In this document: positions 28,343 through 33,091 of the stretch, in pieces
Numbering within the stretch: the stretch's first letter is position 1
How the letters are laid out: every line of letters starts with the position of its first letter
Assembly (NCBI RefSeq): GCF_900116515.1
Contig: NZ_FPBA01000006.1
Coordinates: forward strand, 62,001-126,000
Origin: Geodermatophilus amargosae
Lineage (GTDB): Bacteria > Actinomycetota > Actinomycetes > Mycobacteriales > Geodermatophilaceae
Length of the DNA: 64,000 nucleotides
Direction: 5' to 3'
Made by a program: the position numbers and the translations under genes
The notes under the pieces: model-generated
What the model was told of the DNA's origin: nothing
Seen by the model: the letters and a program-made list of their open reading frames with translations, nothing else
The model's database searches: none

Positions 28343-28395
28343 GGGGTCCTCCGGGGGAGTGGTTCGAACTGGTGAGGACCATGCTCTCGGTAATT

Positions 28396-28414
28396 GCGGT
28401 CAGATCCTGACCGC
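28396..28414. promoter_or_regulatory. Operator candidate between DinB and WYL genes
   Basis: GCGGTCAG-ATC-CTGACCGC is a perfect inverted repeat with 8-base arms and a 3-base spacer. It covers the -35 position relative to the WYL -10-like GAGGAT at 28424-28429 and lies 54 bases from the DinB start, suiting joint control. Confidence 0.75.
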
Positions 28415-28435
28415 TGTGTCAGCGAGGATGGGTCC

Positions 28436-29395
28436 GTGAGCGATCCCGGTGCCCGCACCCTGCGTCTCCTGTCGCTGCTACAGGCGCGCCGCTACTGGTC
28501 CGGCGCGGACCTCGCCGGCCGGCTCGGCGTCTCGGTGCGCACGCTGCGCCGCGACGTCGACCGGCTGCGCGAGCTCGGCTATCCCGTGTCGGCCTCCCGC
28601 GGCGTCGACGGCGGCTACGCCCTCGCGCCGGGGGCCGCGCTGCCGCCGCTGGTCCTCGACGACGACGAGGCGGTGGCCCTCGCCCTCGGGCTGCAGGCCG
28701 CGGCCGGCTCGGCGGTGGCGGGCATGGCCGAGACCTCGGTGCGGGCGCTGGCCAAGGTCGTGCAGGTGATGCCGACGCGGCTGCGGCGGCGGGTCGAGGC
28801 GCTGCGCAGCGCGACGGTCTCCGGCTGGGGTCCGGCACCGGCCGCGGTCGCCGTCGACCCCGCCGTCCTGACCACCGTCGCGCTGGCCTGCCGGGACGCC
28901 GAACGGACCGCCTTCGGCTACACCCCAGCCGGCCGGGAGCGCACCGAGCGCACCGTGGATCCGCACCGGCTGGTGGCGCTGGGCCGCCGCTGGTACCTCG
29001 TCGGCTGGGACCTCGACCGCGGCGACTGGCGGGTGTTCCGGCTTGACCGGCTCGACGCCCCGCGCGGCACCGGTGCCGTCTTCGCCCCGCGCCGGTTACC
29101 GGCCGAGGACGCCGCGGCCTACGTGCGCGAGCGGGTCGGCGGTGCGTGGGGGCGGCTCGTGGTGGAGGCGGTGGTGGCCGCGCCCGCGAAGCGGGTGCGC
29201 GACCGGATCGGCCCGTGGGCCACGGTGACCGACGACGGAGCCGGCTGCCGGGTGCAGATCGAGGCCGACGACCTCGACTGGGCGGCGGCGGCCCTCGGCC
29301 TGACCGGTGCGCCGTTCACCGTGCTGAGCCCGCCGGAGCTCAAGGACCACCTGCGCGACCTCGCCGCCCGGTACGCGGCCGCCGGGGCACCCTGA
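28436..29395 (+). CDS. WYL-domain transcriptional regulator
   Basis: A 319-residue regulator: N-terminal HTH (about 5-60; LLSLLQARRYWSGADLAGRLGVSVRTLRRDVDRL), then a WYL domain (about 140-215; GRRWYLVGWDLDRGDWRVFRLDRL) and a WCX-type C-terminal domain. Such YafY-like proteins often respond to small ligands or nucleic acid and control stress or DNA-repair genes. The GTG at 28436 has GAGGAT 6 bases upstream and no Shine-Dalgarno. The divergent DinB gene and the palindrome at 28396-28414 suggest autoregulation plus control of DinB. Confidence 0.92.
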   Translation: MSDPGARTLRLLSLLQARRYWSGADLAGRLGVSVRTLRRDVDRLRELGYPVSASRGVDGGYALAPGAALPPLVLDDDEAVALALGLQAAAGSAVAGMAETSVRALAKVVQVMPTRLRRRVEALRSATVSGWGPAPAAVAVDPAVLTTVALACRDAERTAFGYTPAGRERTERTVDPHRLVALGRRWYLVGWDLDRGDWRVFRLDRLDAPRGTGAVFAPRRLPAEDAAAYVRERVGGAWGRLVVEAVVAAPAKRVRDRIGPWATVTDDGAGCRVQIEADDLDWAAAALGLTGAPFTVLSPPELKDHLRDLAARYAAAGAP

Positions 29396-29422: not shown

Positions 29423-32098
29423 TCAGGGGGCGGCCGTCTCCTCGGGAGGCGCCTCGGCCGGTGCCTCGGGCGCCGGTGCCTCGGGGGCCGGTGCTTCTGC
29501 AGCCGGGACCTCCGGGGCCGGGGCCTCAGGGGCCGGTGCCTCCGGGGCCGGTGCCTCCGGGGCCGGGGCTTCTGGAGCCGGGGCTTCTGGAGCCGGGGCC
29601 GGGGCTTCTGGGGCCGGGGCTTCTGGGGCCGGCGCTTCCGGGGCCGGTGCCTCGGGGGCCGGCGCTTCCGGGGCCGGTGCCTCGGGGGCCGGTGCCTCTC
29701 GAGTCGGGGCCTCGGGGGCGGGGGCCTCCGGGGCGGGCGCCTCGGGGGCGGGCGCTTCCGAGGCCGGTGCTTCCTGAGGAGGTGCCTCCTCCGCCGGAGC
29801 GTCGCCGGCGGGCGGGTCACCGGTGGTCCCGCTGTCCGCGGGCCGCTCGCCCGGCTGTTCCGGGACGCCCGGGCCCGGCGGGTCGGCGTCCGGGGAGCCT
29901 CCTGTCCCGGCCCCCGGGTCCGGCGCGGTCGTCGCCCCGGGCTCCCCCTCCGCGGGAGGGCTCCCGCCGTCGGTCGGCGGACCACCGGTACCGGCTGACC
30001 CCTCCGCCGGGGACGGATCCGGGACGGACGGTCCGCTCCCGTCGGGGTCCGTGACCGACGGGTCGGCGGACGGTGTGCCGCTGCCCGACGCGGACGTCCC
30101 CTGCTCCGTCCCGAGCGCGCGGGCCCGCTCTGCCAGCGCGGGGTCGACCGGCCGGTCGGCGTCGCCGGTGGTGCCCACCGGGCGCGCCTCCACGACGCCG
30201 GTCGCCTGGTCGACCACGACGAGGGCGGACACGGGCGTCGGGCTGCTCTCCACCACGACGACCGTGGCGGGCGTGAAACCCGGCCACGGGTCGCCCCGGT
30301 ACTCCGGCGAGGGGCGGGACGCGGGCGGGTCGAGCGGGTTGCCGCACACGCAACGGACCTGCGGGACACCCGAGTCGTCGACCAGCACCGCGGTCCCGGC
30401 CTGCAGCACCGACTGGAAGGGGGTCGCCCGGCCGTCGACGAAGCCGTGGTTGGTGACGGCCGTGTCGAAGCGCAGGACGACGGGCGTCAGCGACGCGAGG
30501 TGCTCGCCGATCCCCTCGGTCGGGACGTCCTGCACGTCGGCGAACGCAGCAGCCCGGTCGGGGTGCTCGGCCAGGAACGCGGTCATCGCCGCGACGTCGC
30601 ACACCTCCTCCCCGCTGCCGCCGTACAGGCCCGGTTCGTCGCCCGTCACCGGGCTGCCGGCGGCCACGACCGGGGTGCCTCCGCCCGCGGTGCCTTCGTC
30701 CGGGCTGCCCCCGTCCGGGGTGCCTTCGTCCGGGGTGCCCCCGTCCGGGCTGTCTTCCTCCGGGCTGCCCCCGTCCGGGGTGCCTTCGCCCGGGGTGTAC
30801 CCGCCCGCGGTGCCCCCGTCCGGGGTGGCCGCCTCCGGCCCCGTGTCGTCCGTCCCGGACGTGGGGTCGCCCGTCTCCCGTGCGGAGTCGTCCGTCCCCC
30901 GGGCGGGGTCGTCCGGGCCCGGCGTGGGGGCCCGGTCGGCTCCCGCGGTCCCCGGCGCGGGGTCGGCGGTCCCCGGCGGCGTCTGTCCCGGCATCGGGAC
31001 GAAGGGGTCCTCGCCGGGGGCGTCGACGGGCTCCAGGGAGACCGGGGTCGCCGCCGGGGCGTCGGAGGCGTCGGAGACCAGCTGCGTCGCGGCCACCCCA
31101 CCCGCGGTGGCCAGGGCCAGCCCACCGGTCACCAGGGCCGCCACCAGCCTCCGGCGGCGCCCGGACCGCGCGCCCGGCGCAAGGGGACGGTGCCGCCCGG
31201 CGTGGGAGGCCGACGGGGACGCGCCGCGGGCGACCCCGGCTCCGGCCGCAGGCACGACCGCCCGCGACGCACCCGCGCCGGCGGTCGGCGGTGCGGGTGG
31301 CGCCGACCGGAGCGGGACGGTGTCCGGCGCCCGCACGAGCGCCGCGCGGGCGGCCCGCGCCAGCTCCCCGGCGCTCCGGTGCCGCTGGTCGGGGTCCGCG
31401 GCCATGCCGCGCGCCACGACGCCGTCGAGCGCCTCCGGGACGGAGCCGACCACCGCGGAGGGGCGCGGGAGGGGCTCCGCGCCCGGCCCCGTGCCGCGCG
31501 GCGGCGGTCGTCCGGTGAGCAGCTCGTACAGGAGGCAGGCCAGCGCGTGCACGTCGACCCGGTGGTCGACGGGCCGGCCGGTCAGGTGCTCGGGGGCGAC
31601 GTACCCGACGCTGCCGCCACCGGCTCCCGCGAGGCCGAAGCCGGTCAGGTGGCAGTCCGGGCGGGCGCTGTGCCCGGAGAGGAGCACGTCGGACGGCGTG
31701 ACGTCGCCGTGCACGAGACCGGAGGCGTGGGCGGCGTCGAGCGCGGCCGCGACCTGACCCACGACGTCCACGGCCCGGTCCGGCGGGAGCGGCCCCTCGG
31801 CGGCGAGCACCGCGGACAGCGCCCGTCCGTCGACCAGTTGCGTGTCCACGTACAGCCGGCCGTCGATCTCGCCGGCTCCGTGGACGGCGACGACGTGCGG
31901 CTCGTCGACCTCCGCGGCGCGCCGGCAGTCACCGAGGAAGCGGTCCCGGAACCGCGCGTCGGCGGTGAGCGCGGGCAGCAGGATCCGGAGGGCGACGGTC
32001 CGGTGGCGGGAGGTGTCCCAGGCGCGGTGGACCTCGCCCGTGCGTCCGCGGCCCAGCAGCTCGTCCAGCTCGTAGGGGCCGAAGGTCTGGAGGGGCAG
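29423..32098 (-). CDS. Membrane pseudokinase (PknB-like) with DUF6777-like extracellular domain
   Basis: An 891-residue protein. Residues 8-270 have a Ser/Thr kinase fold, but catalytic residues are lost: the VAIK lysine is Arg38 (VALRIL), HRDxKxxN reads HGDVTPSD (Thr134, Asp137) and DFG is GFG (Gly153). The APE motif (168-170) and HGD aspartate remain. One membrane helix follows (about 320-350), then a Gly/Pro/Asp/Thr-rich linker, an extracellular domain with two close Cys (RCVCGNPLDPP) and TNHGFVDGRATPFQSVLQAGTA matching DUF6777, and a long Ala/Pro/Glu tail. No ATG/GTG/TTG start fits well; CTG at 32098 has GGGAGG 5 bases upstream. ATG 32278 is an alternative. Probably a non-catalytic envelope receptor. 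Confidence 0.85.
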   Translation of the reverse strand: MPLQTFGPYELDELLGRGRTGEVHRAWDTSRHRTVALRILLPALTADARFRDRFLGDCRRAAEVDEPHVVAVHGAGEIDGRLYVDTQLVDGRALSAVLAAEGPLPPDRAVDVVGQVAAALDAAHASGLVHGDVTPSDVLLSGHSARPDCHLTGFGLAGAGGGSVGYVAPEHLTGRPVDHRVDVHALACLLYELLTGRPPPRGTGPGAEPLPRPSAVVGSVPEALDGVVARGMAADPDQRHRSAGELARAARAALVRAPDTVPLRSAPPAPPTAGAGASRAVVPAAGAGVARGASPSASHAGRHRPLAPGARSGRRRRLVAALVTGGLALATAGGVAATQLVSDASDAPAATPVSLEPVDAPGEDPFVPMPGQTPPGTADPAPGTAGADRAPTPGPDDPARGTDDSARETGDPTSGTDDTGPEAATPDGGTAGGYTPGEGTPDGGSPEEDSPDGGTPDEGTPDGGSPDEGTAGGGTPVVAAGSPVTGDEPGLYGGSGEEVCDVAAMTAFLAEHPDRAAAFADVQDVPTEGIGEHLASLTPVVLRFDTAVTNHGFVDGRATPFQSVLQAGTAVLVDDSGVPQVRCVCGNPLDPPASRPSPEYRGDPWPGFTPATVVVVESSPTPVSALVVVDQATGVVEARPVGTTGDADRPVDPALAERARALGTEQGTSASGSGTPSADPSVTDPDGSGPSVPDPSPAEGSAGTGGPPTDGGSPPAEGEPGATTAPDPGAGTGGSPDADPPGPGVPEQPGERPADSGTTGDPPAGDAPAEEAPPQEAPASEAPAPEAPAPEAPAPEAPTREAPAPEAPAPEAPAPEAPAPEAPAPEAPAPEAPAPAPEAPAPEAPAPEAPAPEAPAPEAPAPEVPAAEAPAPEAPAPEAPAEAPPEETAAP
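29450..29775. repeat. Low-complexity 15-bp repeats encoding an Ala-Pro-Glu tail
   Basis: About 20 imperfect copies of a 15-base unit (GCCGGTGCCTCCGGG and variants) encode Glu-Ala-Pro-Ala-Pro on the minus strand, at the C-terminus of the pseudokinase. Third-position variation among copies suggests selection on the protein. It is an extended, probably wall-spanning or mucin-like segment and not a CRISPR array. Confidence 0.85.
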
Positions 32099-32272
32099 GA
32101 GCGCCTCCCGGGAGAGCGGGAGCCGGCACGTCGTTGCGCAGGCTCTCCCGAGTGTCGCCCCGATCCGGCGGGATGCGACGACGTCGTGACGACGCGCGGG
32201 GCCGCACGTCGGTCGGTCGCGACCGGATCGCGCACGGTGAGGCGCCACCCGGCGGAGGCCGCTGCCGGACCC

Positions 32273-32284: not shown

Positions 32285-33091
32285 ATGACGGAGTCAGCGG
32301 GCCGTGTCGCGGTCGTGACCGGGTCGGAGTCGGGCATCGGACGCGCGGTGGCCGTGGCGCTCGCCGGGCAGGGGTGCGACGTCGGCATCACCTGGTACCG
32401 CGACGAGGCGCACGCCCGGGCCACCGCGGACGAGGTGCGCGCGGCGGGGCGGCGCGCGGAGGTGCGGCACGTCGACCTCACCCGGCTGCCGCAGGCCGCC
32501 GACGTCGTCGACGACCTCGCCGAGGCGCTCGGCGGCATCGACGTCCTGGTCAACGACGCCGGCACCGGGCACTCGACGCTGCTGTTGGACACCGACTACG
32601 AGACCTGGCGCGAGGTGATGGCCACCGACCTCGACGCGGCGTTCCTGTGCCTGCAGCGCGCCGCCCGCCGGATGGTCGCGGCCGGGCGCGGTGGGCGGAT
32701 CGTGAACGTCACCAGCGTCCACGAGCACCAGCCGAGGGTCGGCGCGGCCGCCTACTGCGCGGCCAAGGGCGGGCTCGGGCTGCTCACCAGGGTGGCGTCG
32801 ATCGAGCTCGCCGAGTACGGCATCACCGTCAACGCCGTCGCACCGGGGGAGATCTCCACGCCGATGACCGGCCAGGAGGACGAGGACCCGACCGCGCCCG
32901 GCCACGAGCGGCCCGGCGTCCCGGTCGGGCGACCCGGCAGCGCGCACGAGGTGGCCGCCGTCGTGGCCTTCCTCGCCTCCCCGGAGGCCTCCTACGTGAC
33001 CGGCTCCTCCTACGCCGTCGACGGCGGCATGCTGCAGATGGGCCCGATGGCCGGCTCGCACATGACCGGCGACGACTGGCGCCGGCCCTAG
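32285..33091 (+). CDS. Short-chain dehydrogenase/reductase
   Basis: A 268-residue classical [15 protein letters not shown] (about 12-23), the NAG position reads NDAG, the catalytic Ser is in NVTSVHEH, YxxxK is in YCAAK, and the C-terminus reads [12 protein letters not shown]. It resembles glucose-1-dehydrogenase-type SDRs. It stands alone, divergent from the pseudokinase and convergent with the FAD protein, whose stop overlaps its own as CTAG at 33088-33091. The substrate is unknown. Confidence 0.9.

Follow-up and report, generated by a model that had tools for sequence, protein, structure and literature searches.

A Geodermatophilus clade of DUF6777 receptor pseudokinases and the intact kinase beside some of its members

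Background

Pseudokinases are already known in bacteria, and the consulted sections of a 2025 review state that they are experimentally largely unexplored and describe three mainly actinobacterial families, ActPs1-3 (PMC12599244). Here we compare with these families a receptor pseudokinase encoded in a 64,000-nucleotide stretch of the Geodermatophilus amargosae genome (contig NZ_FPBA01000006.1, positions 62,001 to 126,000, this whole stretch being called the window below; the genome comprises 5.87 Mb in 69 contigs). The protein has a kinase fold from which the Lys, the Asn and the DFG Asp are gone, and is thus a pseudokinase by sequence, a class defined by the loss of at least one of the beta-3 Lys, the catalytic-loop residues and the DFG Asp; it belongs to a single clade, carried by nine genomes of the genus, whose members probably signal through partner binding instead of phosphorylation.

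In ActPs1 all three catalytic residues are substituted, many members carry a PQQ-type domain and about 60% lack the G-helix, according to the review text consulted (PMC12599244); the window protein retains the HRD Asp, has no PQQ-type domain among its Pfam matches and has a shortened alpha-G stretch. With ActPs2 it shares a beta-3 Arg (Arg38, replaced by Glu in four of the nine clade members) and a membrane helix that follows the kinase fold, but ActPs2 has Asn for the HRD Asp and a 250-residue extension of the activation loop (PMC12599244), whereas the window protein keeps the Asp and has a short loop. MviN (MurJ), a member of ActPs3, is likewise actinobacterial and membrane-bound, with a deleted activation loop, and is a phosphorylation-dependent FHA platform whose phosphorylated pseudokinase tail recruits FhaA (PMC12599244), a role that we only propose for the window protein. 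The activation-loop deletion of ActPs3 is found in the window protein, the complete degradation of catalytic motifs is not (Asp132 of HRD is retained; definition from PMC12599244), and the protein carries DUF6777 and no MurJ domain. Its origin may be separate from that of MviN: a domain in the MurJ stretch of its own genome (L084) falls elsewhere in our kinase tree, although on a long branch (2.45) with 49% of the columns. Membership of ActPs1-3 was rejected, at least one defining feature of each family being absent, and by the definitions in the published text consulted (PMC12599244) the Geodermatophilus clade is a variant outside all three.

Intact DUF6777 receptor Ser/Thr kinases of Actinobacteria resemble the window protein in domain order, ectodomain family and ancestry, but keep Lys, Glu, HRD, Lys, Asn, DFG, T-loop and APE, and are without the DT[VIL]P motif and the glycine-loop Arg/His described below. 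The preliminary description of this gene called it PknB-like; its nearest solved relative, by sequence and fold, is instead PknE of Mycobacterium tuberculosis (PDB 2h34; 3e-61, with 44% identity in Foldseek), which has intact catalytic residues, and in the tree the pseudokinases fall among DUF6777 kinases rather than beside PknE. We found no paper on DUF6777, nor on pseudokinases of Geodermatophilus, in the open-access library searched.

Loss of catalytic residues across the clade

The intact Lys/Glu/HRD/Lys/Asn/DFG set of an active receptor kinase of the PknB/PknE type is absent from the window protein (Table 1). Alignment to PknE and relatives placed the four substitutions of the preliminary description (Arg38, Thr134, Asp137 and Gly153) at the right positions, and added the loss of the alpha-C Glu, of the HRD Arg, of the gatekeeper Met (Thr86, the position being assigned by us from a PknB alignment) and of 12-14 residues of the activation segment. 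When the nine proteins are read in the order window, G002, G007, G016, G003, G010, G025, G005 and G024, the beta-3 Lys position is RRRRREEEE, the alpha-C Glu DDDDEVVVV, the catalytic Lys TTSGRRRRR, the catalytic Asn DDDEHDDDD (acidic in eight of nine), the DFG Asp GGGGGHGGG and the gatekeeper TTGTTVSEA, as against Met in all eight intact relatives. Gly stands in place of the HRD Arg in eight of the nine, a change that recurs among pseudokinases (19 of about 50 human ones in the consulted text of PMC4718504), and the HRD His (His130 in the window) and the DFG Phe and Gly are retained throughout. Four members have also lost the APE motif and the P+1 loop, and the alpha-G stretch is short or unrecognisable by eye in eight, being present in G016.

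Chance or sequencing error was discarded as an explanation, with the beta-3 Lys, catalytic Lys, Asn and DFG Asp gone from nine genomes. The absence of these four residues from all nine proteins, together with the short activation segment and the variable gatekeeper, gives good sequence-level support to the earlier proposal that normal Mg-ATP chemistry would be beyond them. Beta-3 Glu in four members and an unconstrained gatekeeper, moreover, disfavour conserved ATP binding.

The preliminary description had also asked whether the loss is general among DUF6777 kinases, and it proved to be a property of one clade. In a kinase tree of 44 rows, from which the fragment L041 was left out, the nine Geodermatophilus-type proteins are monophyletic (100/100), with an intact twin, described below, as weakly supported sister (83/64), and all canonical residues are present in the 11 other complete DUF6777 kinases of our residue table (the same fragment aside), as they are in two additional ones from the order (L105 and L109). 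A search of genome contigs found 302 relatives, and among the best 80 of them, at 78 loci, there were 21 frames combining DUF6777 with a kinase, namely six Geodermatophilus pseudokinases and 15 others, 13 of which are intact, one a fragment and one, from Actinomycetospora cinnamomea, altered only by a catalytic Lys to Asn change. DUF6777 (PF20568) occurs in 14 of 26 genomes of the genus and 19 of 112 of the family, and a class-wide search found DUF6777 proteins in 49 of 394 genomes; the extent of the clade is known here from the genus genomes that were compared.

A second pseudokinase-like gene lies elsewhere in the window's genome (L099:689-2665, contig C28, about 506.7-508.7 kb), with relatives in G002 (86%) and G003 (63%). 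Its losses are nearly alike (VTLR, HRDVTPGSV, TGFG), and it is not closely related, being distant in the kinase tree; the losses are convergent.

Origin, gene slot and intact twin

In all nine genomes the pseudokinase occupies a slot between a short-chain dehydrogenase gene and a WYL regulator gene. An intact DUF6777 kinase, the twin, stands directly behind it in four genomes, and the pseudokinase is alone in the other five, including that of the window, none of which has any other DUF6777 gene either. In the window the pseudokinase stop lies just 27 bases from the WYL gene, so no twin remnant is present there. In all 11 other congeners that were fetched, no kinase or DUF6777 of this type was found near the WYL gene (tblastn, E <= 1e-6); the flanks of G006 lie 62 bases from each other, and in others they are separated by other sequence that reaches about 1 kb or more.

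The DUF6777 tree (17 rows, root placed on four other intact DUF6777 kinases) recovers the pseudokinases as a single clade (99/99) and sets them, together with the four twins, apart from those four kinases (100/99), which favours an old duplication. From the trees and the gene order, we infer that a single Geodermatophilus lineage acquired a second, tandem copy of its DUF6777 receptor Ser/Thr kinase. A tree of the flanking proteins could be built for 18 of the 26 genus genomes (in G014 and G019 the dehydrogenase and WYL genes are not adjacent, and G001, G013, G020, G021, G022 and G023 have no clear WYL orthologue); it unites the four paired genomes (99/99), with the five single ones around them and G006, which has neither pseudokinase nor twin, nested inside the wider clade. 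Either two or more losses of the twin, or its later arrival in the paired clade, would explain this distribution. With the intact twin adjoining the dead copy in four genomes and absent in five, the transition from kinase to pseudokinase can be followed position by position, and can be tested in harmless soil bacteria.

The tandem pair and its common ancestry invite the explanation that the pseudokinase serves the neighbouring kinase specifically, as its partner or decoy, forming a heterodimer with it or competing for its ligand. Five of the nine genomes have no twin, however, so a role wholly dependent on it is disfavoured, and the position that corresponds, in our own mapping, to Asp76 of PknB, which we take to be a dimer residue and of which a D76A mutant is on record, is Asp in one of nine pseudokinases as against seven of eight intact kinases. 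We consider such a dedicated partnership unlikely, while acknowledging that the N-lobe remains conserved in the pseudokinases; it is through this lobe that bacterial receptor kinases are described as dimerising in the review text consulted (PMC12599244).

The pseudokinase gene of G010 (L034:7276-10353) has a mixed affiliation, in that the kinase half clusters with those of three paired genomes (100/99) and its flanks with G016 and G006 (93/93), and its DUF6777 branches outside G016 and those three paired genomes. Recombination within this gene is possible.

Selection and conservation

The frame is free of stops in all nine genomes, and the window's DUF6777 is 88% identical to that of the nearest genome. 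Ratios of nonsynonymous to synonymous substitution rates (dN/dS) estimated by YN00 are 0.081 for the window against G002 and 0.112 against G007, and range from 0.039 to 0.155 over the computable pseudokinase pairs (8 of 36), compared with 0.030 to 0.194 over the computable intact pairs (5 of 28). Changes between the window and G002 number 15, 9 and 33 at the three codon positions (33 of 57 at the third). The third-position share is 0.44-0.58 in pseudokinase domains (six pairs) and 0.65-0.72 in intact kinases (three pairs), and 0.56-0.60 in the DUF6777 of the pseudokinases and 0.64-0.72 in the dehydrogenase (three pairs each). We read these estimates as purifying but relaxed selection on the pseudokinase.

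A decaying pseudogene, for which the lost catalytic residues and the deletions in the activation segment might be cited, is very improbable in view of the purifying selection and the conserved ectodomain, and was rejected on the open frames and the codon-position bias.

Conservation has fallen unevenly along the domain, in a comparison whose segment borders were set by us and whose pseudokinase and intact sets differ in divergence. Mean values (pseudokinase/intact) are lowered in the activation segment (0.20/0.65), alpha-F (0.71/0.97), alpha-G (0.30/0.62), catalytic loop (0.72/0.84) and alpha-C (0.59/0.67). They match or exceed the intact values in the N-lobe (0.82/0.83), hinge (0.81/0.77), alpha-D/E (0.86/0.74), beta-7/8 (0.70/0.67) and alpha-H/I (0.69/0.68). 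Such a pattern is that of a fold retained for a purpose other than catalysis and substrate docking.

A further explanation holds that only the ectodomain matters and that the kinase fold is a leftover anchor, slowly eroding. The four members without APE and P+1 agree with it, as do the weaker selection on the kinase domain than in intact kinases and the third-position share of DUF6777, which in the three genomes concerned slightly exceeds that of the kinase domain. Yet alpha-D/E and the hinge are conserved at least as well as in the eight intact kinases (again with sets of different divergence), no in-frame stop occurs, and features of the glycine loop and juxtamembrane linker have become fixed, which makes gradual erosion of a mere anchor quite improbable.

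Gained features: glycine loop and juxtamembrane motif

The intact glycine loop, GRGGMG, has become GxG[RH][TSA]G in the pseudokinases, with Arg or His at the tip in all nine, where the eight intact kinases have Gly and none of the 29 other kinases in our alignment A3 has Arg or His. Because a glycine-loop Arg takes the place of the catalytic Lys in ROP5B (PMC4718504, consulted in part), Arg19 is a candidate replacement for the lost basic pocket residue. The preliminary description had named alternative active-site residues as a finding that would overturn it, and such residues are there in part, in the form of the gained Arg/His and the acidic Asn position, which leaves room for non-canonical binding.

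The domain could thus be a non-canonical switch binding a nucleotide or phosphate, or a weak metal-independent kinase, in which Arg19 would replace the basic residue and Asp132 and Asp137 would hold metal, along the lines of ROP5B, KSR2 or CASK. In addition to the loop-tip residue, the GxGxxG retained by all nine proteins and the acidic Asn position point this way, and in the source text consulted CASK is active without metal despite its missing DFG Asp, a loss that it shares with the window protein, and KSR2 has a beta-3 Arg (PMC4718504). These precedents have given up less, however: CASK keeps the beta-3 Lys and KSR2 the Asn and Asp (PMC4718504), whereas here all are gone together. ROP5B, which like CASK is eukaryotic, keeps the Asn and DFG Asp. 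With beta-3 Glu in four members and a different gatekeeper in many, the pocket is not constant, and the activation segment is shortened, so that we regard a pocket of this kind as doubtful.

A second gained feature lies in the juxtamembrane linker, where DT[VIL]P occurs in all nine pseudokinases and in none of 13 intact linkers. The nine linkers have no three-residue word in common, and only AL, AP and DT as two-residue words, in a comparison made with a crude linker finder that cut short the pseudokinase linkers of L026 and L034 and overran in L044. As this threonine could be phosphorylated in trans, the suggestion that the protein is phospho-independent found no support. The window's genome has six FHA matches, on contigs C43, C36, C29, C62 and C22; C43 carries two of the six, which lie some 4 kb away from the closer of a pair of kinases on that contig.

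Proposed role

The reading that we favour, with a probability of about 0.6, is a receptor scaffold that has lost catalysis and that may be phosphorylated in trans and then recognised by an FHA-domain protein, in the way that MviN is by FhaA. Following tandem duplication of a DUF6777 kinase, one copy would have shed its catalytic residues and part of the activation segment, and some members also the P+1/APE and alpha-G substrate-docking parts, with the fold, helix and ectodomain kept under selection. DUF6777 would probably bind a ligand in the envelope, and the cytoplasmic kinase fold, with its juxtamembrane threonine, would be a docking platform. By analogy with MviN and FhaA, the DT[VIL]P threonine would probably be a trans target of another receptor kinase, and the resulting phosphothreonine would be read by an FHA-domain protein; ligand, partner, phosphorylation and output are all inferred. 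The earlier proposal of a scaffold or a phospho-independent envelope sensor survives in its first half, which fits the purifying selection and the conserved N-lobe, hinge and alpha-D/E, and not in its phospho-independence. The comparison provides a named threonine site and a candidate pocket residue, both of which can be tested.

Several observations weigh against a dead scaffold. The HRD Asp is retained in seven of nine pseudokinases and the glycine-loop glycines in all, so residual chemistry is possible as far as the sequences go, and G016 has an activation segment of 19 residues (26-28 in intact kinases) and retains an alpha-G-like stretch. On the side of selection, 28 of the 36 pseudokinase YN00 values are not computable, and NG86 ratios, a method that handles biased codons badly, are 0.23-0.97 in pseudokinases as against 0.12-0.43 in intact kinases, which indicates relaxation. 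Retention of DT[VIL]P, finally, partly reflects common descent, the nine proteins being a single clade.

A broader scheme, which we put forward tentatively and think improbable as a whole, is a receptor and decoy-receptor module, in which the duplicated DUF6777 kinase would have yielded an active and a dead sensor with a common ligand domain. The basic residue gained in the glycine loop would mark a repurposed pocket, accepting some phosphorylated ligand that is not ATP, the juxtamembrane phosphothreonine would be a docking site, and the dead copy would later have become independent of the twin in part of the genus.

Gene start and protein architecture

From N to C terminus, the protein consists of the kinase fold, a juxtamembrane linker, the membrane helix, a repeat linker, DUF6777 and a tail of PAPE repeats. 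Retention of the fold, APE motif and DUF6777 ectodomain, as first described, is upheld by a Pfam Pkinase match of 86.9 bits and a DUF6777 match of 198.5 bits, well inside the family (curated cut-off 27), with a single hydrophobic helix recognised by eye. The AlphaFold2 model of the kinase domain has a mean predicted local distance difference test score (pLDDT) of 90.8, and the DUF6777 model (m6680b19778ad, window 30080-30691) is likewise confident (pLDDT 90.8). Neither Foldseek (E <= 0.001) nor VIA (Z >= 2) found a fold relative of the DUF6777 model among solved structures, so the ligand class is not readable from the fold.

The start at 32098 is probably right. A CTG lies four codons ahead of the domain in all nine pseudokinase genes (the other eight being L026-L028, L030, L031 and L034-L036), at a place taken by GTG or ATG in the four twins, and it is preceded by GGGAG in eight and by CGGAG in G010. 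Between the upstream stop and the domain, G016 has two CTGs and no ATG, GTG or TTG. CTG is thus probably the common start codon of these genes, judging from its conservation, and is not proved, because each of the eight genes other than that of G016 has an in-frame ATG, GTG or TTG further upstream, which counts against it. If CTG does initiate, ordinary gene callers are likely to misplace the start.

Table 1. Features of the receptor pseudokinase locus, in window coordinates
Feature	Position	Strand	Basis or remark
Receptor pseudokinase gene, 891 residues	29423..32098	minus	translation and Pfam
GGGAGG, Shine-Dalgarno-like, 5 bases 5' of CTG	32104..32109	minus	read by eye
Probable CTG start codon	32096..32098	minus	counterpart of GTG/ATG in four twins
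Pseudokinase domain, residues 5-258; nearest solved structure PknE 2h34	31325..32086	minus	Pfam, structure/sequence comparison, AlphaFold2
Arg19 at tip of glycine-rich loop (GRGRTG)	32042..32044	minus	alignment
Arg38 for beta-3 (VAIK) Lys; window reads VALR	31985..31987	minus	translation, alignment
Asp57 for alpha-C Glu	31928..31930	minus	alignment
Catalytic loop HGDVTPSD (130-137); Asp132 retained, Arg to Gly131, Lys to Thr134, Asn to Asp137	31688..31711	minus	translation, alignment
GFG for DFG (Gly153)	31634..31642	minus	translation, alignment
Shortened activation segment as far as APE, 14 residues vs 26-28 in eight intact relatives	31589..31633	minus	
Juxtamembrane DTVP (Thr260)	31313..31324	minus	linker comparison
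Predicted membrane helix, residues ~318-341	31076..31147	minus	by eye from translation
Repeat linker TPDGG/TPDEG; presumably on outer side, if helix spans membrane	30670..30838	minus	repeat search
DUF6777 ectodomain (PF20568), residues 484-642	30173..30649	minus	Pfam and model
C-terminal PAPE repeats; possible cell-wall spacer (putative role)	29456..29789	minus	repeats
WYL/HTH regulator, conserved slot flank, convergent with pseudokinase gene	28394..29395	plus	
Short-chain dehydrogenase, conserved slot flank, divergent from pseudokinase gene	32285..33091	plus	

Other DUF6777 architectures

A role in anti-phage defence was considered and set aside, since the best PADLOC matches of the window protein are kinase models (PD-T4-6, 257.6 bits, on the kinase part), which we took as similarity of the kinase domain. 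Elsewhere in the genus, a DUF6777 protein of G001 (L039:7630-10698) matches the PADLOC model STK_OB in its N-terminal half (137.1 bits) and has no Pfam Pkinase match, and one of G008 (L033:7554-10508) carries a TIR domain (Pfam TIR_2, 69.1 bits), so the same ectodomain family is there joined to a quite different output. At 10 of the 78 loci, from Streptomyces and relatives (L130, L131, L146, L147, L150, L152, L157, L160, L163 and L197), DUF6777 has a gene of its own, and an intact kinase gene lies upstream of it in the same orientation, as though the receptor had been split.

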